A DNA stretch of 64,000 nucleotides, from assembly GCF_963675165.1 (NCBI RefSeq), contig NC_087385.1:594001-658000 (forward strand), given 5' to 3'. This DNA is from Halichondria panicea. Lineage: Eukaryota; Porifera; Demospongiae; Suberitida; Halichondriidae. The position numbers and the translations under genes were made by a program. Below the pieces are notes generated by a model. The model saw only the letters and a list, made by a program, of their open reading frames with translations, had not been told where the DNA came from and ran no database searches. Position 1 is the stretch's first letter. Every line of letters starts with the position of its first letter. Of this stretch, positions 2,925 to 57,262 are shown in pieces.

Positions 2925-3658
2925 TTACTGAGATGGTAGCATATTGAGTTTTTCAAGTACTTGGGTCATTGATAGTCTATTGTCTGGTTGGCTCTCGACG
3001 CAAGCTGCTATGATATCGTACACTTGTTCCCACTCACTCTTGATACGTAATAGTATTGCTCTTCTGTTCTCAGGGGAAGGCATCTCCTTGGCAATGGCCT
3101 CAGCTAGGAGGTAGCCGTAACTGTACACATCAATCTTTGTAGTTTGTTTCGGAAGGGGATCGTCCAGATTAGATGGTGGGAAGGTTTCGGGGGCAGCATA
3201 CACAATAGCACCAGGAGCTGCTGTCTTGCAGCTTTTAGCCAGATTGGCTGATCCAAAGTCGGATAGTTTTGCCTTCCAAACTCCTGGGTGTATTTGCTGG
3301 AGGAGGACGTTGGGAGCACTCACATCACGGTGGATGATGGGCTCTTGATGCTCGTGGAGGTAGTGGAGGGCATAAGCCACCTTCGAAATATCGATAACAA
3401 AGCATCCTTTTGGAAATTGACAATTTTCCTTTCGTAAGCGGATCGAAGGTCAGTATCCAAGAACTCCAGAACAAGCAGAGGTGAGTCAGTACCTCTCTCC
3501 ACACCAGCGTCCACTACAGCAGCAATCAGTCGCACCAGGTTGGGGTGTTGAACATGAGCCATGATTCGAATCTCTCTTTTAAGCAGATCAATCGTGTTTT
3601 TGTGGAGTATTTTTGTGTGTGCACACTTTACTGCAACTTGCTGACCACGGAACAACCC
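2925..3658 (-). pseudogene. Broken kinase end of the CYLD-kinase gene
   Basis: This is the remainder of the last exon of the gene at 3659-7976. It is homologous to the intact kinase at 26166-27376 (HRDVSAPNVLL catalytic loop, SDFGSAN, APET). Two lesions separate it from the intact copies. A TAA stop at 3659-3661 sits in the glycine-rich loop, where the sister copies read GSVC then Arg. A one-base deletion near 3382 shifts frame just after LLSIFR. A kinase domain cannot be made from this copy without changing two sites. All the catalytic motifs are still readable, so the decay is recent. Confidence 0.8.
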
Positions 3659-9473: not shown

Positions 9474-12400
9474 CTAAATTTTAGGCATTTTGTCATCTTT
9501 TAATATGTTCAGAACTTGAGCCATAGTTGGTCGGTTGTCGGGGCTCTCTTGAGTGCAGCTAGCAATCAGATCGTGGAATTGTGGATAGTCTTTTTCGACT
9601 TCTTTAAGCATGCTCCAGTAATTTTTTACTGCTGGAAATGTGCTAGTGATGACCTCACATAACAAAACACCGTAGCTGTACACATCAATCTTTGTTGTTT
9701 GTGGAATTTGTTCTTGTTTTGGATTGTAAGCTCGAGGTATCACTTCAGGGGCTGAATAAAGTACGCATCCTTCACCACTAGTCTGAGCATGCTGCAGGAA
9801 GTTGGCTGAGCCGAGGTCAGAGACTTTCCCCTTCCACTGGTGGTTGGGCATTCGCTGGAGGAGGACGTTGGGAGCACTCACATCACGGTGGATGATGGGA
9901 TCGTAGCGTTGATGCAGGTAGTCCAGAGCTAGGGCAATGTCCTTGAAGATCGAGAGGCGGTTTCCTGGGTTCAGTTGCTTTCGTTCGTACGCTTGTCGGA
10001 GATTCATATCCAGACGCTCGGTAACGAGGGTAGGAGGGGATTTATTGTTTTGCTCATCAAAAATAGCACCAATGAATTGCACAAGGTTTGGGTGTCGCAC
10101 TTCAGCCAATAACTTCATTTCTCTCTCCATTTTCTCGATAAAAATTGGGTATTCAATTTCTTCGTGTAGTCGCTTGACGGCCACGCTCACTGTTCCCTCC
10201 AGCACCTCCCCCCACCCTCCTTTGCCAATCCTCCTGCCAATGATCACTCTGTTGGCCGGAATCCTCCACACCTCTGTGTTGTGTGCTGTCAACTCTTTCG
10301 TCTTGCCGTCTAATTCAAGTCGCCCAACCATTTCTCGCTCTTCTGCCAGCTGGGCTCTGTCGGATGCCCTCTGTCGGTCTCCTTGAAGTTGTTGTATTTG
10401 CTTTTCTTTCTCGGCTATTTTTTGAGAAGTGGTACGTTCTCGCTCACTGAATTGTTGTAACCTAGCTTCCAATAGTTGGATATGTTGAGACTGCTCAGCC
10501 TGATTGGTTTTGATTCTCTGTTCAAGATTTCTGTTTTCTTGTTTAAGCCCCTCAATGATATCATCTTTGTTCTCTTTGGGCAGAGTCGGGACAACACCTA
10601 TATAGAGAAATTACATAACATGTCAGTGTATCATGTACATAATTATATAGGCACACTCACGATTCCCTACTGATGATGCAGCATGTCCAGCTTGTAGTCC
10701 AAACCTTTCATCAGGACGGAGGCTAGCCAGTGGGAAGTACAACCCATGACCAAAGGTACAGGTGAAGTGCTTCTCTCCTGTATTTTTGAGGGTTCCGTCA
10801 GTACATCCGTCCATGTAGTCCTCCTGTGAGCAAAATTTAAAATAAGTTGATTATTAGTAATGAAAGCACCACAGGTGCTGATGCCTCGGTGGAGGTGCCA
10901 AAGCTACATAGCATAAAGCTACTAAACTTATATATACACATAATAATTATCATGTCGATGCAATTTTGTTGCATGCAGAATACAGAATCACAAAAAGTGG
11001 GTAATGATCGACGATGATTGTTGCTAAAAATGATGGTGCCAAAAGTTCAAGTCTAAAATTAATGGTTGTAAGTCAGCAGAGCCTTGCAGCTCTCTTCTCA
11101 CTCTTGCAGCTACCAATAGCTAGCGTTCTAGTGCAGAGCTAACTACTAAGTAGAGTAGCAACACTCGGTGAAAAAATTTTGCTATGCACTCTTCTGAAAA
11201 GGCTACAATGGCATTCCAAGTAAGCAAAACTAAGGCATAACTCGAGAACAAAGCTTTATTTTGCAAATCCATGAATAGGAATCCAAGAAAACATGATTAG
11301 AAGCCTATAGAAACTCTTACTTGCACTATACACACACACACACATACACACACACACACACACATGCACACACACACACACACACACCGTATACCTCGCT
11401 TGCGTATGCGCACAAGGCATAATAATTATACTCACTAGTTCCATCCCAGCCACCTGACCATCCACTCCAGCTATTCTGCCAGTCCACCTGATCACTCCAT
11501 AGCGTGGTGGGTCATTGGGATTTATACTTGCCAGTTGAACATATGAACCCACTGTCAGGTTGTAGGGGTTGGAGCTTCCTACTGAGGCATTGTACTCTTG
11601 AGGTACATTTACTTGTGGTGGAGTGTTTCGATGGTGCTCACCAGGAGTGTCACGATGAGGTGGATGTCCATGTGCCTGATTGTTTGGAGGAGGGTGGATG
11701 TTATTTGGATAGGGATCAAATTCTTGACTAGATGGTTGCGCCTGATACTGCGTATTTTGATACTGCTGAGCACCAGGGTGTTGTGGGTTCACAGGGTGAT
11801 GACCCAGGCTTGATAATTGTTTGTCAGGATGTGTGTCATAAATGTGATTCGTATTAAGCTGCTTCATGCCAGCCCCAGGCATGTTGTCATAGATGGGTGG
11901 CAGACGATTCTCAGGGTGATAGTTGTCAGGTGGATCGACACAGGAGCCAAAAGGGTTTACAACTCTAGCAACTTCTCGCTTTTCTTCTCTTTGTCTTTTA
12001 AATTCCTTGAGTCTTTCTTCTTGTCCTTGTTCATAAGTATTAACATTAGCCTTCCTGAGCATAGCATCCTCTCCAGACTGTATATTACCAGGTTGAGAAT
12101 TCTGATGAGAGAGAATGTTGCCTGCACTAGCTGAGTGATGACCCAGGCTTGATGATGGTGGTTTGTCAGGAAGTGTGTCATAAACGTGATACTTTGGCCT
12201 GTGAGTGGTCGACAGTGGAGCTTCAGGATTATTCCCTGATGGTCGTGTATCTTGTGACAGTGGACGATGTAGATGGCTATTGGCTGGGACTTTGGGGCGA
12301 CTAATGGATCCTTGCTGCTGCTTATTTTCTCCAGACCGGTTGTACTCTTGAATCATCTTCTCCTGTTTGGCTGGATCCAGTGCCACAGATTCAATGTTGG

Positions 12401-15922: not shown

Positions 15923-18900
15923 TCATAGAGACGGTATATGTAGCATATTGAGTTTTTCAAGTACTTGGGTCATTGATAGTCTATTGTCTGGTTGGCTCTC
16001 GACGCAAGCTGCTATGATATCGTACACTTGGTCCCACTCGCTCTTGATACGTAATAGTATTGCTCTTCTGTTCTCAGGGGAAGGCATCTCCTTGACAATG
16101 GCCTCAGCTAGGAGGTAGCCGTAACTGTACACATCAATCTTTGTAGTTTGTTTCGGAAGGGGATCGTCCAGATTAGATGGTGGGAAGGTTTCGGGGGCAG
16201 CATACACAATGGCACCAGGAGCTGCTGTCTTGCAGCTTTTAGCCAGATTGGCTGATCCAAAGTCGGATAGTTTTGCCTTCCAAACTCCTGGGTGTATTTG
16301 CTGGAGGACGTTGGGAGCACTCACATCACGGTGGATGATGGGCTCTTGATGCTCGTGGAGGTAGTGGAGGGCATAAGCCACCTCTCGAAATATCGATAAC
16401 AAAGCATCTTTTTGGAAATTGACAATTTTCCTTTCGTACGCAGATCGAAGGTCTGTGTCAAGAAACTCCAGGACAAGCAGAGGTGAGTCAGTACCTCTCT
16501 CCACACCAGCGTCCACTACAGCAGCAATCAGTCGCACCAGGTTGGGGTGTTGAACATGAGCCATGATTCGAATCTCTCTTTTGAGCAGGTCAATCGTGTT
16601 TGTGGAGTATTTTTTCATGTGCAGACTTTACTGCTACTTGCTGACCACGGAACAACCCTCGACACACTGATCCCCAAGCACCATGTCCTAGGTTGTCTTG
16701 TAACACAACTTCTTGTCTTCTTACATTCCACGAGTCTTGGTCTAGTCGCGGAATTTGCAGCTTAGAAAACTTTGACTGACTTTCTGCCACCTCGAGCCTT
16801 CGTTGCATGTCCTGAGCCTGCTGTTGAAAGTATTGCTTTTGCCTTTCTAATTGTTGCTTTTCTCTTCTTTGATGCAGTATTTGCTCTTCTTTCTCAGCCA
16901 TTTCTTGAGAGGTGGTACGTTCTCGCTCATTGTATTGTTGTAACTCAGCTTCCAATAGTTGAGAATGTTCAGCCTGATCGATTTCGATTTTCTGTTGAAG
17001 ATTTCTGTTTTTTTTTTGAAGAGAAGTGATTTCTTGTTTAAGTTCCTCAATGACGGCATCTTTGCTCTCCATTGGCTTGGGTACTGTTGAGACAATACCT
17101 ATACACATGTAAAAAAAGTAATGTGTTGAATGAACACTTACCTTCACTGACAATTGAGCAAGGCTCTCCATACATGGCGACATCAGGCTGAACATACACA
17201 CACATGTAGATGTCTTGAGTGAACCGTCGGACCAACTCAACTCTGGTGGTGTACTGAACAGCTTATCCCTGCCTCTGACACCACTGTACACCCACTCATT
17301 CAGCTCACGAGTGCAGTCAGTCACACATGGAATGTTGTACGTGTCATCTGTAAACATAAACATGTTTTTAAGTATGTAAACAAGACTCAATTTGTGCAGG
17401 CTGACTCACATTGCTTGTCTGCCATGCTGTCAAAGAAGATCCACTTCTTCTGAATCTCATCCCTTGGGTCTCTAGTGAAGCAGACGTAGTGACTGGTCTC
17501 AATGCAGATCACAGAGAGAAGGTCCAACTCCGCCAGACCAGGATCATCCGTAGCAATGGCAACAGTAACAGTTAGCATATGAATAGCTCTGTCCTTGTAA
17601 GAGGGGTTGCGATGGAAGAGGTCAGAGCAGCGCTGACAGTAGTGGGTAAACTGCTGCTGACTGAGAGGACCACAAATCTCACACTTGATAACTGACTCCT
17701 CCCCACAGGAATGACAGGGTGGAGCTGGAGCTGTGATGGGAGAATATGTATGATGATACTCAAACACTTGTATAAGACAAAGACACACTATTACCTTTTT
17801 TGTATGTGTCAGTCAACTCTCTGATGTCCAGTTTCAGCTCTGGAACAATCCTCTTGTATGTTTGAAACTCTCTTCCAAACCGAGGAACTTGAAGCAGAAG
17901 CTTCGAGGGAACCTGAAAAACAGTTGAATATTGAGCTAACTACTTTGAGGGTGCATAAATTGAATCGTACCTTTGTGAATGAGATGTGTTGCTCTAGGAA
18001 CATTCTCCTGAGTAGATCTCCCACAGTGGATAGTCTGAGGTTTGGGTCACGCTCCACAAACAGTTCGACAAAGAACTCTTGCTCCACACCAAACGGACGT
18101 CTGCATAAATTTAGACGTGCATCAGTGTACACACAATATTAGACATACCTAATGGAGATGAATGGCGTCGTGTGTAGCATGTGTTTGAAGAGCATGTTCA
18201 GAAACTCCTCAGGATCTGTATACAGGGAACATCATACAGTCAATGTACACTATAAACTGTCAATACCTTTCTCCTTCTCAGTGATTCCCTCCATCTTCCC
18301 GAGTTCTTCCAGAGCATTTCTCATCTTCATCACTGACTCAAACCTCACCACACCATCCTGAAACAGATACCATGTTTGTTATATATATAATTAGAGATTA
18401 ACGACAATAATAAAATTTTAGTACTTTCTGAGAGGATTGACGATTCCCTTCCACAGTAGGTTGGCAACATGTTTCCTGTTTTGATCGATGGATTGGTCTG
18501 GGTCCAGGAACATTGTGTCAAAGACATCACTGAGGGCAAACAGACCAAATATAGTGGAGTCCAGGTAGCAGGAGTTCTGGTGACCTTGGATACCACGGCT
18601 GTTTCCAATGTACCTCATCATTTGCTCAGTGGGATCATTAATGAACTGATCTGTTTGCTCCTCCATTGGGACCTGTACATCTATAGACAAAAGTTATGTT
18701 GAACACACCTAGCTGTAATTTTAAGAATGGGTAAAGGAGGCCATACCAAACGTACATGCATGTGCAAATGTGCGTATGTATATACATGCATGTACATGTA
18801 CACGCTACTACGTGTTTTAGTGTACAATATTTTAATGCACACTCACGATTCCCCAGTGATGATGCAGCATGTCCAGCTTGTAGTCCAAACCTTTCATCAG

Positions 18901-20150
18901 GACGGAGGCTAGCCAGTGGGAAATACAACCCATGACCAAAGGTACAGGTGAAGTGCTTCTCTCCTGTAGTTGTGAACGTTCCATCAGTGCAACCATCCAT
19001 GTAGTCCTCCTGTGAGGAAATGAAAAAATTGTTCAGCAAAATAATTATTGCTACTCACTAGTTCAATCCCAGCCACCTGACCATCTACTCCAGCTACTCT
19101 GCCAGTCCACCTGATCACTCCATAGTGTGGTGGGTCATTGGGATTTATAGTTGCCACTTGAACAGTTGAACCCACTGCCAGATTGTAGGGGTTAGAGTTT
19201 CCTACTGAGGCATTGTACTCTTGAGGTACTTGTGGTGGAATGTTTCGATGGTGCCCACCAGGAGTGTCATGATGAGGTGGATTTCCATGTGCCTGATTGT
19301 TTAAAGGCGGGTGGATGGTATTTGGATAATTACCAAAATCTTGACCAGATGGTTGCGCCTGATACTGGTTAGTTTTCCCCATATTCTGAGCACCAGGTTG
19401 TTGTGGGTACAAAGGGTTGCCTTGCCATTGGTTTTCTTGAAGCGGCTGATTCGATAGGTCATTTCGTTGACTTGAATATTGATCCACTATTTTCTTGTCA
19501 GCATAGTTTTGACCCCAAATGTCAGTGTTAACATAAACTGACTCTCCAGTGTTTTGTGGGGTCATTTGGTTGACTGTTCACTCGTCTCATGTCATGCTGT
19601 GGTTGTGGTGGCTGGACATTCTCTGGTCTTGTGTTACCCTGTTGGGGTGGATATCTTGAATCATGGGTCTGCCCAATATTCCTGTGTGGGTCTTGATCTT
19701 GGGAGGCTTGGGGGGGTGGGGATAAGTTGGTGGGTAACCTCCATGTCCCCCATGACCCCTTTGTTGCTGGTGGGCCCTCTCATGATCGACTGGAACATTT
19801 GCAGCAGCTCCTTCGTTCTGACGATTGTGACGTGGTACTGGATCAGGTATGGGCTCATACGTGGGATCACTTCCAGGATGCCATGAATGTTGTTTCTGAA
19901 TTAGATTTTCTCTTCCTTGTTCAGTGTTAGTGCTGGCAAGGTCTTGTCTTTTTTTTGCTGCTTCAAAAGCTTCCATTGCCTCTTGCATGCTGAGCAGAAG
20001 CTCTCATTAGGTGAAAGTGCACCTTTTACTTCTCTGAGTTCCGGATTTAACGTAGATCTAGTCTATTTCCTCTTTTCTCTTTTCTAGTGTTCTCTTCTGC
20101 AGCTTTTCTAGCTTTTCCTCCACAGTTTCCATTTCTTTACCTATAGCTCA
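15923..20150 (-). pseudogene. CYLD-coiled coil-kinase pseudogene, 5' truncated
   Basis: A paralogue of the intact fusion at 26166-31138 that has lost exons 1-2 and carries several lesions. A two-base deletion lies near 19570 in the long linker exon. Frame breaks and stops fall between about 19990 and 20100. A net 7-base loss near 17235 destroys the last protease exon (TPPELSW where sisters read TPPRELPEL). A frameshift near 16600 is followed by TGA between the kinase lysine and helix C. The core protease exons at 17415-18690 stay open, with Cys box GIQGHQNSCYLDS and His box ETSHYVCF. Kinase motifs HRDVSAPNVL and DFG survive, with one codon deleted after NVL. The region from the broken exon to the neighbouring kinase gene at 20257 is a recombination junction. 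Confidence 0.8.
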
Positions 20151-20256: not shown

Positions 20257-23200
20257 CTAAATTTTAGGCATTTTGTCATCTTTTAATATGTTCAGAACTT
20301 GAGCCATAGTTGGTCGGTGGTCGGGGCTCTCTTGAGTGCAGTTAGTAATCAGATCGTGGAATTTTGGATAGTCTTTTTCGACTTCTTTAAGCATGCTCCA
20401 GTAATTTTTTACTGCTGGAAATGTGCTAGTGATGACCTCACATAACAAAACACCGTAGCTGTACACATCAATCTTTGTTGTTTGTGGAATTTGTTCTTGT
20501 TTTGGATTGTAAGCTCGAGGTATCACTTCAGGGGCTGAATAAAGTACGCATCCTTCACCACTAGTCTGAGCATGCTGTAGGAAGTTGGCTGAGCCGAGGT
20601 CAGAGACTTTCCCCTTCCACTGGTGGTTGGGCATTCGCTGGAGTAGGACGTTGGGAGCACTCACATCACGGTGGATGATGGGATCGTAGCGCTGGTGCAG
20701 GTAGTTCAGAGCTAGGGCAATGTCCATGAAGATCGAGGGGCGGTTTCCTGGGTTCAGTTGCTTTCGTTCGTACGCTTGTCGGAGATTCATATCCAGACGC
20801 TCGGTAACGAGGGTAGGAGGGGATTTATTGTTTTGCTCATCAAAAATAGCACCAATGAATTGCACAAGGTTTGGGTGTCGCACTTCAGCCAATAACTTCA
20901 TTTCTCTCTCCATTTTCTCAATAAAAATTGGGTATTCAATTTCTTCGTGTAGTCGCTTGACCGCCACGCTCACTGTTCCCTCCAGCACCTCCCCCCACCC
21001 TCCTTTGCCAATTCTCCTGCCAATGATCACTCTGTTGGCCGGAATCCTCCACACCTCTGTGTTGTGTGCTGTCAACTCTTTCGTCTTGCCTTCTAATTCA
21101 AGTCGCCCAGCCATTTCTCGCTCTTCTACCAGCTGGGCTCTGTCGGATGCCCTCTGTCGGTCTCCTTGAAGTTGTTGTATTTGCTTTTCTTTCTCGGCTA
21201 TTTTTTGAGAAGTGGTACGTTCTCGCTCATTGAATCGTTGTAACCTAGCTTCCAATAGTTGGATATGTTGAGACTGCTCAGCCTGATTGGTTTTGATTCT
21301 CTGTTCAAGGTTTCTGTTTTCTTGTTTAAGCCCCTCAATGATATCATCTTTGTTCTCTTTGGGCAGAGTCGGGACAACACCTATATAGAGAAATTACATA
21401 ACATGTCAGTGTATCATGTACATAATTATATAGGCACACTCACGATTCCCTACTGATGATGCAGCATGTCCAGCTTGTAGTCCAAACCTTTCATCAGGAC
21501 GGAGGCTAGCCAGTGGGAAGTACAACCCTTTACCATAAGCACAGGTGAAGTGCTTCTCTCCTGTAGTTGTGAAAGTTCCATCAGTACATCCATCCATGTA
21601 GTCCTCCTGTGTAATTATCATAATTAGAGCTGGAACATTTTGTAGGTATTTTAATTTGTCTGGTGGACACAACGTCATTGCAGCAGTAGCCACAGCCTGA
21701 GACACCAAATAAAAAACCCGTCAAGTCAGTTCAAATGGCTCATACCAAATATAATGGTTGTGGTGGCTGGACACCCTCTGGTCTTGTGTTGCTATGGTGT
21801 GGTAGATCCAGATCATGGTTCTGCCCAGTACCTCTGTGTGGGTCAGATTGATCTGTGGGGGGTTGGGAATAGTTTTGTGGGTAACCTCCAGGTCCCCCTT
21901 GTTGCTGCCCTTGTTGCTGATGTACCTTCTCATGATCGACTGAATTTGCAGCAGCTCCTTCATTCTGACGTGGTACTGGATGGGGTCTAATTCCGTCATC
22001 AGGTATGGTCTCATACGTGAAATCACTTCCAGGATGCCATGAATGTTGTTTCTGAAGTTGATTTTCTCTTCTTTGTTCAGCGAGGTCTTGCTCTTTTTTT
22101 ATTGCTTCTTCAAAAGCTTTTAGTGCTTCTTTCTGAGCGGACAAATTAATGCTCTTATCAAGTGGAATTCGAAGTGCACTCTTTAGTTTCGGATTCGAGG
22201 TATTTCCTCTGTTCTCTTTTCTAGCGTTTTCCTCCGCAGCTTTTCTTTTGGCCTCCTTTCTCTTAGCCTCTTCAGCATCCTTCAAAACCTTTTTCTGCTC
22301 TGCTATAAACTGTCTCTCAGTCTTGCCCTCCTCTCGTGCAACAGCTGCTGGGTCTATAAGGTCAACATCTCTAGCTGGGGGTGTGCGAGTGTTGGCCAAG
22401 TCCTCTCTGAACACAAGGTGCTCGGGGACCACCAAACGATGACCAGATTTAGCCTTAAATAAGTGAAGTATTCCTGTCAATGCTTTAGGGAAGAGATTAG
22501 TGACAGCAACCCAATCCTGTGAAATTAAAGAGTCATATTAATGAACGGAATAGCTAGTTGACATAGCACTCACTGTTTCAATCCCTATGTGGTTGGTGTC
22601 CATTGTTCTAGTGTGTACATCTCTACCAATCCAGCGAACAGTTCCACCCATGGGTTCTTTCTTCCTGTTGTAGACCACCACACGATCGTTGATCTTGAAG
22701 CGAGAGGGCATATCGACAGATGACCCTTGGATGACATCGATGATTTCCGGCAAAGAAGCTATTAGCACTTGGTGCAATGTAGCGCGTGCAGCTAGCTTAT
22801 CCAGAGACACAAAGAGACCACGGTCTTTATCACACTCAAAATATCTGTATCCCCTATAGAAACCATCAGTGCTGCCTTTTCCAAGGTAACGAGAATCCTG
22901 TGGGAATCATGGTTAATTAACACATGTATTATTGGTTGATACTTCATATAAGACCCCACGAAAGATGCTGAGTTAGCATTCCTAGGTTCCCACTGTTGTA
23001 TAGTTCCTAATACCTTGATCTCCACTCCAAAGTTTATCCCTGGTAATGACCCCACAGGTCCAACATATCTCACTGCACCAGCAGACCAGGTGGGTACAGG
23101 TGTGGGGAGCTTGACATAGACCAGGTCACCTTTCTTCAGCCTGCCACCCCATTCTAGTTTACTGTACTCAGAGAACACAGTGAATCGATTGTATGGCTTC

Positions 23201-23517
23201 TCAATAGCTTCCAAAAGGTGCAGCGCTTTGCCATTCAGTAGAGAAACATACTCATCGTGTTCACCACCATACAGTGTGACACTGGTGTCTTTTATGGAGC
23301 GAAAGTTGTGAGGTGGTCTTCCATCATAGCGTACTGACCACTCTTGATCTTGTTGGGGAATCTGAGTGAGCAGTTCACCTCGGAACACTTGAACAGGTTT
23401 TGGATTTGGACCACTTGCAAAAGAACCTACTAGGAAAGTCATGATTTTCCCTGGAGCCTTCTCTCCATACACATCCTTCATTAGTATGTAGAACTGGTAG
23501 TCTGGAATTTTGGCCAT
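20257..23517 (-). CDS. CAP-Gly/coiled-coil/protein kinase fusion lacking the protease (second copy, kinase type B)
   Basis: Exons 23014-23517, 22574-22897, 21746-22516, 21444-21606 and 20257-21380 join to 2,886 nt, one frame of 961 residues. Exons 1-2 give a complete first CAP-Gly (GAVRYVGPVGSLPG then YLGKGSTDGF). Exons 2-3 give a degenerate second one. The third has lost its first half because exon 3 ends early (QPPQPLYL) before the CAP-Gly segment, leaving only EDYMDGCTDGTF. The last exon is coiled coil plus kinase, almost identical to 9474-10597 (GKGGWGEV, VAVKR, HRDVSAPNVLL, SDLGSAN, APEV). The start MAKIPDYQFY agrees with sister genes. The protease cassette is absent but the join is in phase. 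The start lies 132 bp from a PIGU stop codon, so its promoter probably overlaps the PIGU 3' end. Confidence 0.8.
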
Positions 23518-26165: not shown

Positions 26166-29100
26166 TTACTGAGACGGCAGCTTATTGAGTTTTTCAAGTG
26201 CTTGGGTCATTGATAGTCTATTGTCTGGTTGGCTCTCGACGCAAGCTGCTATGATATCGTACACTTGTTCCCACTCACTCTTGATACGTAATAGTATTGC
26301 TCTTCTGTTCTCAGGGGAAGGCATCTCCTTGGCAATGGCCTCAGCTAGGAGGTAGCCGTAACTGTACACATCAATCTTTGTAGTTTGTTTCGGAAGGGGA
26401 TCGTCCAGATTAGATGGTGGGAAGGTTTCGGGGGCAGCATACACAATAGCACCAGGAGCTGCTGTCTTGCAGCTTTTAGCCAGATTGGCTGATCCAAAGT
26501 CGGATAGTTTTGCCTTCCAAACTCCTGGGTGTATTTGCTGGAGGAGGACATTGGGAGCACTCACATCACGGTGGATGATGGGCTCTTGATGCTCGTGGAG
26601 GTAGTGGAGGGCATAAGCCACCTCTCGAAATATCGATAACAAAGCATCCTTTTGGAAATTAACAATTTTCCTTTCATACGCAGATCGAAGGTCTGTGTCA
26701 AGAAACTCCAGAACAAGCAGAGGTGAGTCAGTACCTCTCTCCACACCAGCGTCCACTACAGCAGCAATCAGTCGCACCAGGTTGGGGTGTTGAACATGAG
26801 CCATGATTCGAATCTCTCTTTTGAGCAGGTCAATCGTGTTTTTGTGGAGTATTTTTGTGTGTGCACACTTTACTGCTACTTGCTGACCACGGAACAACCC
26901 TCGACACACTGATCCCCAAGCACCATGTCCTAGGTTGTCTTGCAACACAACCTCTTGTCTTCGTACATTCCACGAGTCTTGGTCTAGTCGCGGAATTTGG
27001 AGTTCAGAAAACTTTGAGCTTTCTGCCACCTCTAGCCTTTGTTGCATGTCCTGAGCCTGCTGTTGGTAGCACTGTGATTGAGCTTCAAGGTGTTGCTTCT
27101 GTCTTTCCAGTTGGTGCTTTTCATTATCTGAATTTTGCTTTTGTTGTTGTATTTGCTCTTCTTTCTCGGCCATTTCTTGAGAGGTGATACGTTCTCGCTC
27201 ATTGTATCGTTGTAACAACTGTTGCTTTTCAGCTTCCAATAGTTGGATATGTTGAGACTGCTCGGCCTGATTGGTTTCTATTCTCTGTTGAAGACTTCTA
27301 TTCTTGGCCTTAAGAGAAGTGATTTCTTGCTTGAGCTCCTCAACGATGTCATCTTTGCTCTCCATAAGCTTGGACACTGTTGGAACAACACCAATGTATT
27401 GATTGTTTTACTCAGCATAAATTGAACACTTACATTCAGTGATAATTGAGTAAGGCTCTCTGACTGAATGTGGTTGATGATCCTCTTCACCACCGTCTCC
27501 ATACATGGCGACATCAGGCTGAACATAGACACACATGTAGATGTCTTGAGTGAACCGTCGGACCAACTCTGGTAGCTCTCTTGGTGGTGTGTTGATCAAC
27601 CTGTCCTGGTCTCCCTCATACACCCACTCATTCAGCTCACGAGTGCAGTCAGTCACACGTGGAATGTTGTATGTGTTAACTGCATGTACACAACAATAAA
27701 CATACAACAAGTGAAGGCTGACTCTCACATTGCTTATCTGCCATGCTGTCAAAGAAGATCCACTTCTTCTGAATCTCATCCCTTGGGTCTCTAGTGAAGC
27801 AGACGTAGTGACTGGTCTCAATGCAGATTACAGAGAGGAGGTCCAACTGTGCCAGACCAGGATCATCAGCTGGAGTAGCAGGAACAACGGCAACAGTTAG
27901 CCTATGATTAGCTCTGTCCTTGTAAGAGGGGTTGTGATGGAAGAGGTCAGAGCAGCGCTGACAGTAGTGGGTGAACTGCTGCTGACTGAGAGGACCACAA
28001 CTATCACACTGGATAGTTGACTCCTCCCCACATGAATGGCAGGGTGGAGCTGGAGCTGTATCGAAAAAAGTTAAACGAGATACAAAGACATCCTGTTACA
28101 TTTTTTGTAGGTGTCAGTCAACTCTCTGATGTCCAGTTTCAGCTCTGGAACAATCCTCTTGTATGTTTGGAACTCTCTTCCAAACCGAGGAACTTGAAGC
28201 AGAAGCTTTGAGGGAACCTGAAAACATATAATAGTTGATTAACTTTAAAAAAATAGAGTCACCTTTGTGAATGAGATGTGCTGCTCTAGGAACATTTTTC
28301 TGAGTAGGTCTCCTACAGTGGGTAGTCTGAGGTTTGGGTCGTGCTCCATAAATAGCTGAACAAAGAACTCTTGCTCCACACCAAACGGACGTCTGTATAA
28401 ATTTATACGTGCGTCAGTGCACACACAATATTAGACATACCTGATGGAGATGAATGCCTTAGTGTGTAGCATGTGCTTGAAGAGCATGTTCAGAAACTCC
28501 TCAGGATCTGTAATAGGGGTTTTTATGAACACACAGCAATGATCCAGACTACAATTTCACCTTTCTCCTTCTCAGTGATTCCCTCCATCTTCCCGAGTTC
28601 TTCCAGAGCATTTCTCATCATCATCACTGACTCAAACCTCACCACACCATTCCTGAAGCAGAGTTGGATATACACACATGCCACAAGAAATCATTATTAC
28701 TTACTTTCTGAGAGGATTGACGATTCCCTTCCACAGTAGGTGGGCAACACGTTTCCTGTTCTGATCGCTGGTGATATTGGATTTGTCTGGGTCCAGGAAG
28801 ATGGTGTCAAAGACATCACTGAGGGCAAACAGACCAAAGATGGTAGAGTCCAGGTAGCAGGAGTTCTGGTGACCCTGGATACCACGACTGTTTCCAATGT
28901 ATCTCAACATTTGCTCATTAATGAATTGGTCTGTTTTCTCCTCCATTGGGACTTGTATAGCTACAGAATACACATCACTTTGAGAATGGGTAAGGGAGAC
29001 CATATACCAGATACATACACATGTCTACAGCGTATATAGTGTACGCAATTTACACTGACTCACGATTCCCTACTGATGATGCAGCGTGTCCAGCTTGTAG

Positions 29101-31138
29101 TCCAAACCTTTCGTCAGGACAGAGGCTAGCCAGTGGGAAATACAGTCCATGACCAAAGGTACAGGTGAAATACTTCTCTCCTGTGGTTTTGAAGGTTCCA
29201 TCAGTACATCCGTCCATGTAGTCCTCCTGTGAGCAAACATGTTTAATAATTATAGCACAATGTATAATTATTGACTCACTAGTTCAATCCCTGCCACCTG
29301 ACCATCCACTCCAGCTACTCTGCCAGTCCACCTGATCACTCCATAGTGTGGTGGCTCATTGGGATTTATAGTTGCCACTTGAACAGTTGAACCCACTGCC
29401 AGGTTGTAGGGGTTGGAGCTTCTCGAGGAATCGTAATCGTTTAACTGAGATGGTTGATTCGGTTGGTCGTTTTGTTGACTCTGCTCTACTGCTTCAATGT
29501 TAACATAGTCTGCATCCCCAGTGTTTTGTGGTGGGGTATGATTCGTCACTCGTTTCATATTAGGTTGTACATTTGCAGTTTTCTTTCTGTTCTCCTTTCT
29601 TTTAGCCTCTTCAGCATCCTTCAAAGCTTTCTTCTGCTCTGCCATAAACTGTCCCTTACTCAAGCCTTCCTCACGTGCAACAGCTGCTGGGTCTGAAAGG
29701 TCAACATCTCGAGTGTTGGCCAACTCTTCTCTAAACACTTCTCTAAACACAAAGTGCTCAGGGACCACTAAACGATGACCAGATTTAGCCTTAAACAAGC
29801 GATTTATTGCTGTCAGTGCTTTAGGGAAGAAATTAGTGACAGCAATTGAGTCCTGTGTGAAAAGAATCGTATTGCTATTTAGATGGAGTGCGAAGCGCAA
29901 GAGTGAAAATTGCACGCAGCACAACATTTTTTAACATTATGCCCACTTTCGGTCACACATCGTGCAGTAAGACTATGGAAAATCTCATTCTCAGTCAGGG
30001 GAATTCCCGTCTTACGTACGTAGAGCTGTTACAAACGGTCAACTAGCTAGCCTAGGATAAATTGAAATACTCGATGCTCTACGCAAATCTAAGACCGGAA
30101 TTCCCCTGACTGAGAATGAGATTTTCCGTAGTCTTACATGTACCATGTACACAACCGGTACAATCATTGAATCAAAATTAACTACAATACATCTATATAG
30201 CTACCCTGAATCCGGCACTGACAGAGTACTTACTGTTTCAATGCCGATATGGTTGGTATCCAGTGTTCTAGTCTGTAAATTCCTGCCAATCCAGCGAACA
30301 GTTCCACCCATGGGTTCTTTCTTCTTGTTGTAGACCACCACACGATCGTTGATCTTGAACATACGTGTAGGGAGCTTATCGGTAGGTGACCCGTGGGTAG
30401 AAGAGTTGACCCCTGATGGAGAAGAGCTCTTTAGCTGCTGACGTGTGGAACCATGGGGCACTTGGTGAGGTGGTTTAGCAGCAAGCTTATCCAGAGACGC
30501 AAAGAGACCGTAGTCTTGATCACAGTCAAAATATCTGTATCTCCCAAAGAAACCATCACTGCTGCCTTTTCCAAGGTAACGAGAGTCCTGTAGATAATTA
30601 TATAGATTTGTATGTAAGAGCATAATTATTATTATTATCATAACTATGCACTCACTGTAATCTCCACTCCAAAGTTCCTCCCTGGTAATGATGACACAGG
30701 TCCAACATATCTCACTACACCAGCAGACCAGGTAGGTGCAGGTGTGGGGAGCCTCACATAGACCTGGTCACCTATCTTCAGCTTGCCACCCCATTCCAGC
30801 TTATAGTCCTCAGAGAACACAGCAAATCGATCGGAAGGGTTCTCAATAGCTTTCAAAAGCTGTAGATCTATGCCATTCAGTGGAGACACATGATCGAACT
30901 GATCGTCTTCACCACAATACAGTGTGACACTGGTGTCTTTTGTTGAGCGAAAGTTGTGAGGTGGTCTTCCTTCATAGCGCTGTGCCAATTCTCTATGGTA
31001 AATTAGAGCAAGCAGTTCACCTCGTAACACTTGAACAGGTTTTGGACTGCCTATACTGACAGACATGATCTTCACTGGAGCCTTCTCTCCATACACATCC
31101 CTCATTAGCATGTACAGGTAGTCTGCCATTATGGCCAT
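26166..31138 (-). CDS. Intact CYLD deubiquitinase - coiled coil - protein kinase fusion
   Basis: Twelve exons: 30656-31138, 30234-30587, 29280-29852, 29064-29226, 28705-28960, 28561-28652, 28441-28507, 28263-28392, 28100-28217, 27729-28055, 27434-27679 and 26166-27376. They total 4,020 nt, a single frame of 1,339 residues. Three split CAP-Gly domains (about 95-200, 225-300, 410-510) precede a CYLD protease with Cys 559 in NSCYLDS, a B-box-like zinc cluster (about 751-795), His about 828 in ETSHYVCF and Asp about 848 in FFDSM. Residues 938-1065 are coiled coil. The kinase has GHGAWGS (1086), Lys 1106, Glu 1124, HRDVSAPN (1205) and DFG (1229). Both enzymes look active. Known CYLD proteins end after the protease, so the kinase is an added domain. 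The predicted role is ubiquitin-chain removal coupled to phosphorylation; substrates are unknown. The start lies 98 bp from the PIGU stop. A 12-bp duplication gives VFREVFRE in exon 3. Confidence 0.85.
29960..30136. repeat. Palindromic foldback repeat in intron 2 (paralogous copy)
   Basis: Same foldback element, same intron position and nearly the same sequence as 6790-6966. It is useful as a neutral marker for dating the duplication of these two CYLD-kinase genes. Confidence 0.75.
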
Positions 31139-34373: not shown

Positions 34374-37300
34374 ATGGCCAAAGTACTAGACTACCTGTAC
34401 ATTCTAATGAAGGATGTGTATGGAGAGAAGGCTCCAGGGAAGATCATGTCTGTCCTAACAGCTCCTTTCGCAGGTGGTCCGAAAACGGTTCAAGTGTTAC
34501 GAGGTGAACTGCTCACTCAAATTCCCCAACAAGAGTGGTCAGTACGCAATGATGGAAGACCACCTCACAACTTTCGCTCTACAAAAGACTCCAGTATCAC
34601 ACTGTATGGTGGTGAGGACGATGACTATGTGTCTCCACTGAATGGCAGAGATCTAAAGCTTTTGGAAGCTATTGAGAAGCCATACGATCGATTCGCTGTG
34701 TTCTCAGACGACAATAAGCTGGAATGGGGTGGCAGGCTGAAGAAGGGTGACCAGGTCTATGTGAGGCTCCCTGGTGATAATGCAAGTGTACCTACCTGGT
34801 CTGCTGGTGTAGTGAGACACTTTGGACCTGTGGGGTCATTACCAGGGAGGAACTTTGGAGTGGAGATTTCGGTGAGTGCAAAGTTATATGGTATGCTCTC
34901 CTTACAGACCTCATCTACAGGACTCTCGTTACCTTGGAAGAGGCAGCAGTGATGGTTTCTTTGGGGGATGCAAATATTTTGAGTGTGAGCACAACTGTGC
35001 TCTCTTTGTGTCTCTGGATAAGCTAGCAACTGAACCACATCACCAAGTACCCCATGGCTCCATACGCCAGCAACCAAAGGGTTCTGCCTTACCAGTCCCC
35101 AGTCCACGCACTGCAGCCAACTCTTCTAACTATGGGTCACCTGTTGATAAGCCCTCTCACTTCAAGATCAACGATCGTGTGGTGGTCTACAACAAGAAGA
35201 ATGTAGCCATGCATGGAACTGTTTGCTGGACTGGTAGGGATGTACAGACTAGAACACTGGACACCAACCACATAGGGATTGAAACAGTGAGTGATAATTA
35301 TGCCTCAGTGCGCATGCGCTAGTACAGTTGTGTGTTTGTGTGTAAATTGCTACAGCTGCTAAACGATCAACGAGAGTTTCTATAGGCTTCTAGTAATCTT
35401 TTTCATTCGTGGATTTGCAAAATAATGCTTCATTCTCGAGTTATGCCTATTTTGCCTATACTTAGAATGTCATTCAGCCTTTTCAGAAAAGTGCGTAGCC
35501 AAACTTATCCATGAAGTACTACTCTACTTTGTATAGTTAGCTCTGCACTAGAACGTAGCCACAAGAGTGAGAAGAGAGCTGCAAGGCTTTACTGATGCAG
35601 CAGCCATTAATTTTAGACTTAGTACTTCCTTTTTAATCAGGGTCGATCATTTCCCACTCTTTGAGTTTCCATGCATGCAGCAAAATTAATGCAAAATGCA
35701 AATGTTCATCATGATATCTGGCATGTGTGTATTAGCAATAGCTAATAGCTTTGACACATCCACCGAGGCGTCAGCACCCACGCTTTCATTACCCGAGGCG
35801 CGCGTGGGCGGCCACGGGTATAGTAGTATGTTGGTCTGTTTGTTTGTTTGTTTGTTTGTTTGTTTGTTTGTTTGTCACAGGTATATCTACTCACCTGGAT
35901 GCCACAGCGCTGCGTTTACAGCATAGATAGCCTTCACACAACAATATCTTGATTTAAATAGTGGCAGATTTTGATGTTAAAGCTTCATTGTCGAGCAAAA
36001 GCTAAGAAGCTTGAACTTGCACGTTGGCAGCTAGCTAGCTACACGTGGCCTTGATTACGTAGTTGCAGCTGAAGTGATCCTTACCAAATATAATTATAGT
36101 AGAAAGCTAAAATTGTGACTGGTTGTTGGCTGACTCTGGATCCTATACTCCAGCCTGGCAGGAGCCATACCTCTTTAAGTCTAAGCTCCAGGCTTCTTTG
36201 CTGTCATCCCTGTCCACAGTGCATGTCTAATGTGACATGTACCACTCAATGTTTCAGCATGCCTCCAAGTCTGGTTTAGTTTTATTGCTCTTGAGTTGCT
36301 GTGCTAGTCATACATGCACTGCATTATCACTCTTCTGGTTTCTTTATTATCATGTCACCAGCCGAGGGTTTGCACTTTAGTGCTCTAGTTATGTTTAGTA
36401 TTACCTATTCACACAGGATCGGGTTGCTGTCACTAAGGACGTTCCTAAAGCACTGACTGGAATAACTCACTTATTCCAGGCTACACCTGGTAAAAGTTTA
36501 GTGGTCCCTGAGTACCTTGTGTTCAGAGAGGAGTTGGCCAACACTCGCACACCCCCAGCTAGAGATGTTGACCATTTAGACCCAGCAGCTGCTGCACGTG
36601 AGGAAGGCGTGAGTAAGAGACGATTGATGGCTGAACAACAACAAGTTTTGAAAGAAGCACAAAAAGTTAAAAAAGACATGAAGAAAGCTGAAGAGAATAA
36701 ATCTGTTGAGTTCAGTGAAGTAAAAGTGGCATTGAATGAGAGCATAGACGTATCAAATCAAAAGAAACTATTAGAAGCTTTCAACGAAGAAAAACGAGAA
36801 GAGGACCGAAAAAAGAAAGCTCAGCAAGAAGAAGCCAAACTTAACGTGGAACAGCATGCAGGGCAAGCTAGAGGTCCCTCGGTTCAGAAACAAAACTCAT
36901 GGCACCCTGGAAGTGATAAAATTTACGATCAAATACATGTACCTAGTGACAGAAGCAGATTACCACATCAAAATGAGAGAGCTGCTGCAAATGTTCCTAT
37001 CGATCATGAGAGGATACATCAGCAACAAGGGGGACCTGGAGGTTACCCAGCACCAACTTATTCCCAAACCCCCCAAGATCATGACCCACACAGAGGTAGT
37101 GGTCAGATCCATAACTCAAAATATCCACCCCACCATGGTAACACAAGACCAGAGAGTGTCCAGCAACCACAACCACAGCATGACATGAGACGAGTGAACA
37201 GTCATAACCAAATGACACCACAAAACACTGTGGATCCAGATTATGATAACTGGGATATAGTGAATCAGTGTCAACGAAATGACCTGTCAAATCAACTGCC

Positions 37301-39665
37301 TCAAGGGAACCAACAGCAAGCCAACCCTGTGTACCCACAACAACCTGGTGCTCAGCTGTACCACAATGTCCAGTATCAGCAACCACCACCTGGTCGACAC
37401 TTTGGTAGCGATGCAAATACCATCTACATTCCTCCAAACAACGAAGCGTATGGATATCAACCTCATCATGATACTCCTGGTGGGCACCATCAAAACACTC
37501 CACCACAAGTACCTCAAGAGTACAATGCCTCGGTAGAAAGCTCCAACCACTACAACCTGACAGTGGGTTCAACTGTACAAGTGGCCTCTGTGAACCCAAA
37601 TGACCCACCACGCTATGGAGTGATCAGATGGACTGGCAGAGTAGCTGGAGTGGATGGTCGGGTGGCAGGGATTGAACTGGTGAGCCTCAATATTTGCTTA
37701 ACAATTCTTATTATCAGTTTGCTCACAGGAGGACTACATGGATGGGTGTACTGATGGAACTTTCAATGCCACAGGAGAGAAGCACTTTACCTGTACCTTT
37801 GGTAAAGGGTTGTACTTCCCACTGGCTAGCCTCCGTCCTGATGAAAGGTTTGGACTACAAGCCGGACATGCTGCCACATCAATGGGGAATCGTGAGTGTG
37901 CATTAAAAGTGTGGTACACTGCATATGCGTGTCCTTATTTATTTAAAGCATAATTAATGGTTAGCATTCTATAGCTATATACTGGTCCCAATATGGAGGA
38001 GCAAACACATCAGTTACTGTTTCTCTGTCTCTACAGCTGTTCAAGCTCCGATGGAAGAACAAGCAGACCAGACTATCCATGATACTTCTCAACAGATGAA
38101 GCAATACATTGGAAACAGCCGTGGTATCCAGGGTCACCAGAACTCCTGCTACCTGGACTCCACCATCTTTGGTCTGTTTGCCCTCAGTGACATTTTTGAC
38201 ACAATGTTCCTGGAACCAGACCAATCCATCACCAGCGACCAGAACAGGAAACGTGTTGCTGACTTACTGTGGAAGGGAATCGTCAATCCTCTCAGAAAGT
38301 AAGAAAATGATTTCTTGTATGTGGCATGTATATCTCTAACAATCTGTTTCAGGAATGGTGTGGTGAGGTTTGAGTCAGTGATGAAGATGAGAAATGCTTT
38401 GGAAGAACTCGGGAAGATGGAGGGAATCACTGAGAAGGAGAAAGGTATATTGACAGTTTATAGTGTACGTTGACTGTATAATGTTCCCTATTACAGATCC
38501 TGAGGAGTTTCTGAACATGCTCTTCAAACACGTGCTACACACTAAGGCATTTATCCTCATCAGGTATGTCTAATATTGTGTATACACTTATTTAATACTC
38601 ATATATAGGCGTCCGTTTGGTGTGGAGCAAGAGTTCTTTGTCCAACTGTTTGTGGAGAACGACCCAAACCTCAGGCTACCAAACGTAGGACAATTACTCA
38701 GAAAAATGTTCATAGAACAGCACATCTCATTCACTAAGGTATTGTACTAGACTAAATTTTTCAGCACTCCAAGTTAAACTTTTTCAGGTTCCCTCAAAGC
38801 TTCTGCTTCAAGTTCCTCGTTTTGGAAGAGAGTTCCAAACATACAAGAGGATTGTTCCAGAGCTAAAACTAAACATTAGAGAGTTGACTGACACATACAG
38901 AAAAGGTAACAGAGTGTCCTTGTGTAATTGTTTTTCATGTTTTCAATACAGCTCCAGCTCCTGCCTGCTATATATGTGGGGTGGAGTCAGCTATCCAGTG
39001 TGATAGTTGTTGTCCTCTCAGTCAGCAGCAGCTCACCCACTACTGTCAGCGCTGCTCTGACCTCTACCATAGCAACCCCTCTTACAAGGACAGAGCTAAT
39101 CATAGGCTAACTGTTACCCTGGATGCTACTCCAGCTGATGATCCTGGCCTGGCACAGTTGGACCTCCTCTCTGTGATCTGCATTGAGACTAGTCACTATG
39201 TCTGCTTCACTAGAGATCCAAGGAATGACATTGAGAAGAAGTGGATCTTCTTTGACAGTATGGCAGACAGGCAATGTGAGCCAGCCTTTACTAATAGATG
39301 TCTTCACTTGTTTACATACTTTAATACATGTTTTATGTGTACAGATGACACGTACAACATTCCACGTGTGACTGACTGCACTCGTGAGCTGAATGAGTGG
39401 GTGTACAGTGGTGTCAGAGGCAGGGACAAGCTGTTCAGTACACCACCAAGAGAGCTACCAGAGTTGGTCCGACGGTTCACTCAAGACATCTACATGTGTG
39501 TCTATGTTCAGCCTGATGTCGCTATGTATGGTGCTGATGGGGAGGACGAGGAGGATCTAGGTAGGTGTCTTATGTAAAGTGTAATGGTAATAATTCACAA
39601 ATACTTAAATTTACCATGACTGTGTTTTTACAGCACTGACTCAAAATAAAGTGACTCAAATATAA
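34374..39665 (+). CDS. CYLD-like deubiquitinase without kinase
   Basis: Exons 34374-34871, 34921-35286, 36417-37679, 37729-37891, 38037-38298, 38353-38444, 38497-38563, 38609-38738, 38788-38905, 38952-39275, 39345-39560 and 39634-39665 sum to 3,531 nt, one frame of 1,176 residues. There are three split CAP-Gly domains, a long Gln/His/Pro-rich linker in exon 3, and the CYLD protease with GIQGHQNSCYLDSTIFG, a B-box-like cluster (CYICGVES ... CDSCC), ETSHYVCF and FFDSM. The last coding exon gives only ALTQNKVTQI then TAA. No coiled-coil or kinase exon follows, and the flank is a foldback repeat. It is the closest kinase-free relative of the fusion genes, on the opposite strand. Either it never gained the kinase or it lost it; the first is simpler. 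Predicted role: removal of Lys63/Met1-type ubiquitin chains, as in the CYLD family. Confidence 0.85.
35320..35880. repeat. Repeat R1 (inverted copy) plus TTTG microsatellite in intron 2
   Basis: The large intron 35287-36416 holds an inverted relative of 10855-11400 (sharing ggcttctag, gtggatttgcaaaataatgc and the ccgaggcgtcagcaccca block), followed by about 12 units of TTTG at 35828-35875. The rest of the intron shows no feature I recognise. Confidence 0.6.
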
Positions 39666-40548: not shown

Positions 40549-40779
40549 CTACAAAACAGTGGAGCATCGAGGTGCCTATAAATTAATGGTGCCTAACGGT
40601 AATTACTTATGAGCGCACATGTGATCTGCCCTTGTGGGCTAATACTCTCCAAAACTGGAGGCGAGAAAGAAGAAGAAGAAGATAAAACCTGACGGTGGAT
40701 GACGCGCGTCCAACCCCCTCTGAGATAATACTTTGAGGTGTGGTTATCTAGGCCTTCCAATAGAAAAAAATCGGGGCAT

Positions 40780-43612
40780 ATGCAAGACCTAATGGGGACA
40801 ATAATGGATAAGTCCACTCCAGATCCAGTTGAAGAAGCAGAGACGGCCTTCCAGGCAGTAGATCTAGGCTCCACAGTGCAAGTGGGGGAGCCTCCTCGCT
40901 ATGGAGTAGTCAAGTGGTTGGGAATGTTCCCAGGAGGTAGTGAGCTGATGGCTGGTATAGAGCTGGTGAGGAGTATACTGAATAGAGCTAGCTCGTGTGT
41001 GTGTGTGTGTGTGTGTATATGCTGTGCCAGGCTATAGACCTATTCTAGCTAATAGCTGTGCCACAAGAATAAGTACAACCATAGATACTAGCTCCAGGGC
41101 TTGGCATGTCTGTTGCAACGTTTCACCCATTATTTATTAGATTCGTATTTATAATGTTTGGGCTATGCGATATAATTGCGTCACTGTGACTACCTACCTA
41201 CCCGTGCTCTCCTCACAGGATGAGTACTGGCCTAAGGATTGTGGGGACGGATCATTTGAGGGACATAGCTACTTCAGTTGTGGGCATGGCCATGGATACT
41301 TCCACCCTCTCAAGAACGTCCAACCAGATCAGAGATTCCTAACCATCGACCCTGTACCTGCCATCACCCGGGGGAACAGCATACCAGCCGAGAATCGTAA
41401 GCTCCATTCTCTAATAATGATTCCGAATAGAATAATTATTGTTTCAGTGTAAAGTCGATCAGTATACACATTAGAGCTTTCGAAGTCGGGTGAATGACAC
41501 CTTATAACGTAATTGTACACACATACATGTACATAGTGATACGTAGGCATTATTGCAATGCATGACTGCTTCCCCTCCCCTTCAGCGCTACAGGCCCCCC
41601 TGGAGGAACTGGAGGAACAACACACAATACCCCCCACACAGGTCTATGTTGGGGAGAAGAGAGGGATCCAGGGTCACTACAACTCCTGCTACCTGGACTC
41701 CACTCTCTTTGGTCTGTTTGCCCTCAGTGATGTCTTTGACTCCATGTTCCTGGCACCAGACAAAGATGCTCCAGCCAGCAGACAAGAGTTCAAGGACCTC
41801 CTCGCCAAAAAAATAATCAATCCTCTCAGAAAGTGAGTTGTATGTGTATGTGACCTCACAATCTCCCAACAACCATTTCCTTCATGCTATAGTAGTATTA
41901 GTAGGCATATTCATGTAGAGTATATTGGCATTGTCTGAAATGATGTGTGTTTTGTCAGGAATGGAGTGGTGAGGTTTGAGTCTGTGATGGAGCTGAGGAG
42001 AATGATTGAGGACCTGGGTAAAATGGAGGGTGTGCAGGAGAAGGAGAAAGGTGAGTCCCCATACCAAATTTCCCACTCTGATTCCATCCCCCTACTAGAT
42101 CCGGAGGAGCTCCTGAACTTGCTGTTCAAGAACATTCTGCACATTCCACCCTTCATACAAATCAGGTACCGTACGTCACTGTCACTGTGTATAGTTACAC
42201 CAATGTTGTTTGTAGTACATATGTATGTATATAAATTATATACCATCTTCTTGCTTGTCCACTTATCTCGTACTAAACTTACATGTACCACCTCTTTTTT
42301 CTGCAGACGTTCGTTTGGTGTTGAGGATGAATTTTTTATCCAGCTGTTCATATCATTTGACCAGACCTTGAGGCTGCCTACCATTAAGGAACTAACAAGG
42401 AAAATGTTCGATGAAGGAAAACTATCTCTGACAAAGGTGAATTGTTGTCATGGAAATTTGCTGATTTTAAGGCAAAATTCGAAACTGAAACATGCATTCT
42501 GTAGCTCTTAGACTAATGAAACTCGTAATTGTGTGTTTAGATAATATATTTTTAACTTGGCAAATCAACCAATTTGTCGAAGGCCTACATATAATAATTG
42601 TACATGCATGTATGTTCTTGCTTGATCTTGTTCTTCTTTCCTGCCCTTAGGCTCCCTCCCAGCTGCTGGTACAAGTGCCACGATATGGTCGAGGGTTCAA
42701 GACGTGTCAGAGGATTGTACCAGACCTCAAGTTTGACATTTCTGAATTCACAGAGGCTTACATTTCTGGTAAGTAAAATATTGCCTGTATTTATTGTTCC
42801 CCAAACACTGATGGTATTTTCTGTACAGCTGATGTCCCTGGCTGTATGATATGTGGGGAGAGGTCGTCATGGAAATGCTCTCAGTGTAAACATGACTTTA
42901 TGACTAGCGAATCAGATGTCTATTTCTGTGAGGTGTGCTCGAGAAAGGCTCATACTAGGAAGGAGAGAAGAGACCATACAGTAAACCGAGCAGTGACTGT
43001 TCCAATGGCTGAACTGGACCTCCTCTCTGTGATCTGCATTGAGACCAGTCACTACGTCTGCTTCACTAGAGACCTCGACACAAACACATGGCTCTTCTTT
43101 GACAGTATGGCCAACAGACTCTGTAAGTTTATAGTAACCTTTGTATTAGGAAAATTATGTCCCAATCAATAGTTTTGAGCTAAGCGTACCAAATTCCCTT
43201 AACATCTTCGTACAGCCATAACTTGAGTTAGAACTTACAATAATCAATACGTTTTCTGAATTTCCCATGGGCTATAATTGTTATTGTACAATTATACGTT
43301 CCATCTATGCAAGCCTCTGTACAGTGCTAGCTTAATACCGTGTCATTACAATAGCTCTTAATTATCACCGTTTTGCATATAGATGACAAGTACAACATTC
43401 CCCGGGTGACGGACTGCACAGCTGCCCTGAATGAGTGGGTGTACAGTGGAGACCTGACACAGCTACTGAGTGCACAGCCAAGAGAGCTACCAGAGTTGGT
43501 CCGACGGTTCACTCAAGATGTCTACATGTGTGTCTATGTTCAGTCCAAGCCCAAGTCTACGGACAATTCTAGTTACAATGAAGAGTTTGTAGATGTAGCT
43601 TGGGAATTTTAA
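40780..43612 (+). CDS. CYLD: Short canonical CYLD deubiquitinase, one CAP-Gly plus protease
   Basis: Exons 40780-40965, 41219-41396, 41586-41832, 41959-42050, 42099-42165, 42307-42436, 42651-42768, 42829-43122 and 43383-43612 total 1,542 nt, 513 residues in one frame. The single CAP-Gly is split (RYGVVKWLGMFPGG, then CGDGSFEGHSYFSCGHGHG). The protease has GIQGHYNSCYLDSTLFG, a B-box-like zinc cluster beginning CMICGERSSWKCSQC, ETSHYVCF and FFDSM, ending VYMCVYVQ and a short tail. The start is the first ATG (MQDLMGTIMD). The N-terminal CAP-Gly domains of human CYLD are absent, making it about half the usual length. Its sequence is more divergent from the array and closer to generic CYLD, so it may be the ancestral-type gene. 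Intron positions match the larger genes exactly. Confidence 0.85.
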
Positions 43613-48915: not shown

Positions 48916-49455
48916 TTCTGTGGCAACTGTGCTAGCAGTAGACTCCAGTCTGATTAGACTTGGTGTGTATCTAGTAAGAGTGTGTGCAATGGTGCATTAA
49001 GGTTCTAAAATGTGAGGTTCAACATAACAACAGTATTGATGTCAGTCTTAACACTTAATGTCTGCATGCCCTCCCCCACACAGGCGCATGACTGTCTCAT
49101 GGTAGCACGCTATACACATGTAATATGATTTGGATTGCAGACGCTACCATGCATGTTGCTTACTATACCACGTATATACGATAATTATCAACCCATGATA
49201 TCCAAGTATTAGTTATGTACAGTGTAGAGGGGTTTATGACCGTAAACCTCCCAACTACGAGGGCGTAGCCCGAGTGAGAGGTGTGGTTTACTGTCATAAA
49301 CCCCGAGGCACTGTGCATTAATCCCATCTGATTGGCTGGCTGGTTGCTATGCATCCAGCCTATATTATATTAGCTTGCATGACTACCACCTAGCAACACT
49401 ATTCAAACAAGAAGACAACTAGGAAAAGAGAGCTCGTCCACACCAGGGCTCCTGT

Positions 49456-57239: not shown

Positions 57240-57262
57240 GTGGCGACGAGGATTAACGGATC

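Follow-up and report, generated by a model that had tools for sequence, protein, structure and literature searches.

A putative fusion of a CYLD-type deubiquitinase with a coiled coil and a TKL-like kinase in a gene array of the sponge Halichondria panicea

CYLD is a deubiquitinase (DUB) that trims the ubiquitin chains serving as assembly platforms for immune kinases; the vertebrate enzyme is itself tuned by a separate kinase. According to the accessible part of PMC8511506, IKK-beta phosphorylates CYLD, phosphorylation of Ser568, a residue between the third CAP-Gly domain (CAP-Gly3) and the protease, increases K63 cleavage by the human enzyme, and CAP-Gly3 binds ubiquitin. The DUB domain is carboxyl-terminal in CYLD of human, fly, worm, coral, and Amphimedon, as described in the sections available from PMC5796713. 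Kinases joined to an unrelated signalling protein have been reported as GPCR-TKL/K and GPCR-TK fusions, the latter in choanoflagellates and sponges (PMC12716839, available sections). Here, we describe a gene in a window of 64,000 nucleotides (the whole stretch of DNA analysed, C9:594001-658000) from the sponge Halichondria panicea, whose genome was searched as 131 Mb in 39 contigs. With moderate confidence, we read this gene (g620, hereafter the focal gene) as a real fusion, in which CAP-Gly domains, a CYLD-type protease, a coiled coil, and a TKL-like kinase would form one polypeptide with the origin and action proposed below.

The focal gene lies on the minus strand (window 31138..26166; Table 1) and has 12 exons separated by 11 introns of 44-381 bp, all GT-AG. 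The coding parts sum to 4,020 nt, or 1,339 codons plus a stop, so the 12 splice-consistent exons and 1,340 codons of the original prediction are confirmed. The domains follow in the order CAP-Gly domains, CYLD protease, coil, and kinase. Pfam finds CAP-Gly in two stretches, UCH at 24.0 bits (cut-off 23.9), and Pkinase at 6.2e-36. In searches of the PDB, CAP-Gly1 matches 1whl (5.4e-7) and CAP-Gly3 matches 1ixd (3.5e-18). Three CAP-Gly domains had been claimed, of which the first and third are thus recovered, and the middle one (about residues 235-310) is found by neither Pfam nor the PDB search. For the protease, phmmer retrieves human CYLD (2vhf, 4.9e-73) over residues 4-372 of 375; the four distinct sequences matched are 2vhf and three labelled 'Uncharacterized protein' (3wxe/f/g), and the alignment of 3wxg to the focal protease resembles that of 2vhf. 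The triad is present as Cys559, His828, and Asp848 (boxes NSCYLDS, TSHYV, and FFDSMAD), and the CxxC pattern of the putative zinc-binding insert in the protease aligns with 2vhf. The protease is complete, as had been proposed. Scans with it of bacterial and archaeal genomes and viral contigs, collections that hold no animal genomes, returned no relative.

Like human CYLD, the sponge protein has CAP-Gly domains ahead of a CYLD-type protease that carries the triad and the CxxC insert; unlike human CYLD, it continues past the protease into a coil and a kinase. The earlier statement that other CYLD proteins stop after the protease is in line with the available text of PMC5796713 for the five animals named above. 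A carboxyl-terminal protease is the usual layout of CYLD but does not define the enzyme, and the focal protein departs from this layout.

All the catalytic residues claimed for the kinase are in place, namely Lys1106, Glu1124, the HRD Asp1207, Asn1212, and the DFG Asp1229, and the VAVK lysine, alpha-C glutamate, HRD, Asn, DFG, and APE motifs can all be read. The closest solved kinases among the matches listed are CTR1, TNNI3K, MAP3K9, and RAF, with ABL, roco4, and IRAK4 close behind; judged from these best matches, the kinase looks TKL-like. It shares the canonical motifs with the TKL kinases and differs from them in its HRDVSAPN loop and in being joined to a ubiquitin protease, the likeness being one of pairwise matches. 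An analogy with RIP/IKK-type kinases had also been drawn, and it is not supported: RIPK is absent from the best 60 of 1,897 and the best 60 of 2,234 solved-structure matches, and in one such search IKK-beta scores 1.6e-15 against 3.4e-20 for CTR1. For exon 12, NCBIfam gives only bacterial families below threshold. An AlphaFold model of this exon from a four-row alignment was poor (mean predicted local distance difference test 52.5, predicted template modelling score 0.24), with the coil helix alone confident. The GPCR-TKL/K and GPCR-TK proteins of PMC12716839, as far as its available sections describe them, are receptors and not ubiquitin proteases, and they are likened to the sponge gene by architecture, not by kinase homology. 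Among the literature matches listed, a scope that mostly excludes subscription papers, there was no CYLD-kinase or deubiquitinase-kinase fusion.

Exon-wise tblastn was run on sequence from C9:531-658 kb, with gaps at about 544, 554, 560-564, 568-570, and 589-590 kb, and on sequence from C1:4465-4475 kb. CYLD followed by the coil-kinase exon was found in 12 copies, 11 of them in the C9 array and one on C1 (gC1); g556 and g565 are seen from exon 5 (part) and exon 6 onward only. The same scan found three CYLD copies that end at the protease (g538, g628, and g634), four stretches with CAP-Gly and kinase parts and no protease, and one partial CYLD copy on C1. The exon 11/12 junction has a GT donor and an AG acceptor in all 12 kinase-bearing copies; in gC1 the usual acceptor is absent and an AG 15 nt upstream serves, with the frame kept. 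In the 11 tabulated copies, the junction introns measure 54-68 bp, six of them with a length that three does not divide, yet the spliced frame is kept; the script behind this table demanded frame-consistent sites, and the donors and acceptors are nonetheless visible at matching places in the copies. Judged over the stretch that starts with the first protease exon available and closes with exon 12, nine of the 12 copies read openly across the join: the focal gene, seven others on C9 (including g591, which reaches window 1-2773), and the one on C1. In the genome search for the kinase, 103 of 704 candidates were scored, so weaker members are undercounted; 11 exons are at least 82% identical to focal exon 12, the next match being 49%, and all 11 stand 60-82 bp behind a CYLD exon 11 (measured between tblastn matches).

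The ratio of nonsynonymous to synonymous substitution rates (dN/dS) was calculated for the 36 pairs of the nine intact copies, pairs that include converted copies and are not independent evidence. It is 0.07-0.42 for the kinase, 0.19-0.71 for the protease, and 0.13-0.66 for the linker and coil; the old pairs with gC1 give 0.31-0.38 for the kinase against the K1 copies. These ratios indicate purifying selection on protease and kinase alike, and the catalytic residues are kept in the intact copies. The original prediction had cited two sister loci (3659-7976 and 15923-20150) as carrying the same join, and had concluded that this was not an assembly accident. The join is present in both loci, but both kinases are broken. 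The conclusion nevertheless holds, given 12 copies with the join, nine of them open, and the selection on both enzymes; as a claim about sequence it is right and stronger than first put forward, chiefly thanks to the copies that lie beyond the window.

The two enzymes of the array have different histories. Between protease lineages A and B (12 A-B pairs, without gC1 and g584), identity is 62-68% and synonymous divergence (dS) is 0.65-0.84; for the part after the protease, identity in the same 12 pairs is 89-92%, with a dS of 0.06-0.13 in the kinase. Sliding identity was followed for three of the five B-lineage copies against g620: in 90-nt windows that start at exon 11 it climbs to 99-100%, the linker gives 67-84%, and kinase values are for the most part back at 90-100%. 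Copies g548 and g584 are 97% identical in the protease (dS 0.05) and 53% identical in the kinase (dS 1.8), with the switch point in the coil part of exon 12. The swapped kinase of g584 (C9:584233-588970) clusters with those of the CAP-Gly and kinase genes (tree support 93 and 100) and has DLG for DFG, as do the kinases at window 9483-10574 and 20266-21357. In the last third of the gC1 kinase, identity to g620 drops to 60-81%. The protease identity table and tree were built without g538, whose model joins exon 10 wrongly, and without g609, and those for the kinase without g596 and g609. Since the histories of protease and kinase differ, these comparisons indicate that the kinase is exchanged between CYLD copies, which is newly found here. 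The branch order of the CYLD lineages has low support (37 and 52) and fits either a single kinase gain with loss or passing of the kinase by exchange.

A further new finding is that the focal kinase is, by its matches, a member of a large family of terminal exons, which stand also behind Neuralized-like, Hsp70, Kelch, and CAP-Gly frames. Arrays in which Neuralized-like repeats precede the coil-kinase exons occupy about 93-631 kb of C3 (L055-L068 except L060 and L065). Pfam was run on two of the Neuralized-type loci and identified Neuralized in L055 (1.1e-9 and 3.6e-9); the match in L060 on C13 (1.6e-4) was below the cut-off. The other upstream frames gave Hsp70 at 3.7e-181 (L073) and Kelch at 1.3e-5 (L074). 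In L073 (C16:2688919-2692008), the Hsp70 frame extends as far as the examined piece reaches, and the kinase search shows Hsp70 and the family kinase sharing a single open frame of about 1,034 aa, and therefore no splicing is needed for this join; the Neuralized, Kelch, and CAP-Gly joins are predicted from position and splice signals. A phase-1 donor and an acceptor in frame with the kinase were found in nine of the 12 Neuralized-type loci printed. The exceptions are L068, where the signals are present but out of frame afterwards, L055, which has no intron, and L059, where a wrong motif was caught. In the two protease-less CAP-Gly genes of the window, exon 4 joins the kinase exon in phase 1, and in the focal gene the block of exons 5-11 is in phase 1 at both start and end. 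Tentatively, the terminal coil-kinase exon with its own phase-1 acceptor could be a genome-wide plug-in, with an array that trades kinases and can skip exons 5-11 in frame, giving combinatorial ubiquitin-trimming kinases that tune their own protease. A death-domain-like frame before a kinase on C8 (L075) was also considered and was dropped, having no Pfam match at 0.01.

Several points weigh against a functional fusion. It is predicted from genomic sequence, three CYLD copies (g538, g628, and g634) lack the kinase, and three of the 12 kinase-bearing copies are broken, g565 by one stop, g596 by a stop and a frameshift, and g609 by frameshifts, with the defects in the kinase or near it. The lysine of HRDxK is a rule for reading the substrate type of a kinase; the catalytic loop here is HRDVSAPN, without this lysine, so the substrate type cannot be read from the sequence. 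If intron 11 is retained, the focal gene yields CYLD alone, and the locus might mainly produce this shorter protein through retention or an early end, with the fused form minor or conditional. We consider such a mixed output unlikely. CYLD-only sister genes exist, and a retained junction intron introduces a stop in six of the 11 tabulated copies (focal gene, g540, g556, g571, g591, and gC1), but it holds no stop in the other five (g548, g565, g576, g584, and g596); moreover, the copies retain both splice sites of the junction, and the kinase dN/dS is below 0.5 in all 36 pairs.

The broken copies, two of which lie inside the window, also suit a decaying or neutral array in which duplication carried the kinase along and the fused product lacks any role as such, and exchange between copies could spread the kinase exon without selection. 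This is improbable in view of the nine open copies, the catalytic residues kept in the intact ones, and kinase dN/dS values well under 1, those of the gC1 pairs included. Least credible is a kinase exon that forms a separate gene close behind CYLD. Exon 12 is indeed a single open frame, and five of the 11 tabulated copies, the focal gene among them, have an ATG near its start. However, the early ATG is absent in the other six, where the first Met comes 53-67 codons in, the coding parts are 57 bp apart, the acceptor phase is common to other joined family members, and the 103 scored matches of the 704 candidates include no free copy of the focal kinase type.

For the preferred reading, a fused CYLD-kinase gene, we propose the following origin and action. 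A terminal exon encoding coil and kinase, with its acceptor in phase 1, would have been placed behind a CYLD gene, and the fused gene would later have been amplified as a tandem array. The join would be spliced in RNA, and both enzymes are predicted to be active, the protease as a candidate for cleaving K63 and M1 ubiquitin chains. CAP-Gly3 may dock the protein on the ubiquitin chains of receptor signalling complexes, possibly in immunity, and the coil may pair protein copies. Targets of the kinase could then include nearby proteins and the linkers that flank the protease, either in cis or across a pair of copies; as first proposed, the two enzymes may act jointly on the same complexes. By analogy with vertebrate CYLD, linker phosphorylation might set protease activity, so that the built-in kinase could perform the IKK-beta step and replace a separate kinase. 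Conversion and unequal exchange in the array would swap kinase parts among protease lineages. Both enzymes in one protein of an early-branching animal would make their coupling directly testable; if true, a kinase exon that joins many proteins and is exchanged among copies would represent present-day exon shuffling that builds signalling proteins.

Table 1. Exons of the focal gene and related loci in the window
Feature	Window position	Strand	Remarks
g620 exon 1	30656..31138	-	start codon 31138; CAP-Gly1 begins; CAP-Gly = protein 136-195
g620 exon 2	30234..30587	-	CAP-Gly1 end and atypical middle CAP-Gly-like part
g620 exon 3	29280..29852	-	linker, CAP-Gly3 start
g620 exon 4	29064..29226	-	CAP-Gly3; phase 1 at end
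g620 exon 5	28705..28960	-	CYLD protease, Cys box NSCYLDS
g620 exon 6	28561..28652	-	CYLD protease
g620 exon 7	28441..28507	-	CYLD protease
g620 exon 8	28263..28392	-	CYLD protease
g620 exon 9	28100..28217	-	CYLD protease
g620 exon 10	27729..28055	-	CYLD protease: CxxC insert, His and Asp boxes
g620 exon 11	27434..27679	-	CYLD protease end and short linker; phase 1 at end
g620 intron 11	27377..27433	-	57 bp; retention gives in-frame TAA terminating protein after protease
g620 exon 12	26166..27376	-	coiled coil and TKL-like protein kinase, stop
g591 5' part, CYLD and kinase	1..2773	-	open from exon 5 on; kinase exon beyond window
g596, CYLD, coil, and kinase	2928..7976	-	kinase broken: in-frame stop and frameshift
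g603, CAP-Gly exon(s) and coil-kinase exon, without protease	9483..11627	-	
g609, CYLD, coil, and kinase	15941..19220	-	broken by frameshifts; automatic model unreliable
g614, CAP-Gly exons and coil-kinase exon, without protease	20266..23517	-	
g628, CYLD without kinase	34374..39550	+	
g634, diverged CYLD without kinase	40750..43543	+	

Other features of the window and genome were also recorded. Four sites in the genome code for CGASYAF or CGSSYAF, which we take to be silicatein-type active sites, in keeping with a sponge; all lie in papain-family matches, the reversed control pattern occurs nowhere, and there is no genomic instance of the motif type with TCN coding Ser. Rfam gave no match in the window at gathering scores. 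Repeated membrane-protein fragments, presumably resembling PIG-U, occur at window 31240-32200 with further pieces in L052 and L053, and were apparently copied along with the array. On the minus strand, window 45214-48996 encodes ankyrin repeats (46081-48996) and a ZU5 domain (45214-45996). A retroelement polyprotein frame at window 57257-61204 contains reverse transcriptase, RNase H, and integrase domains.

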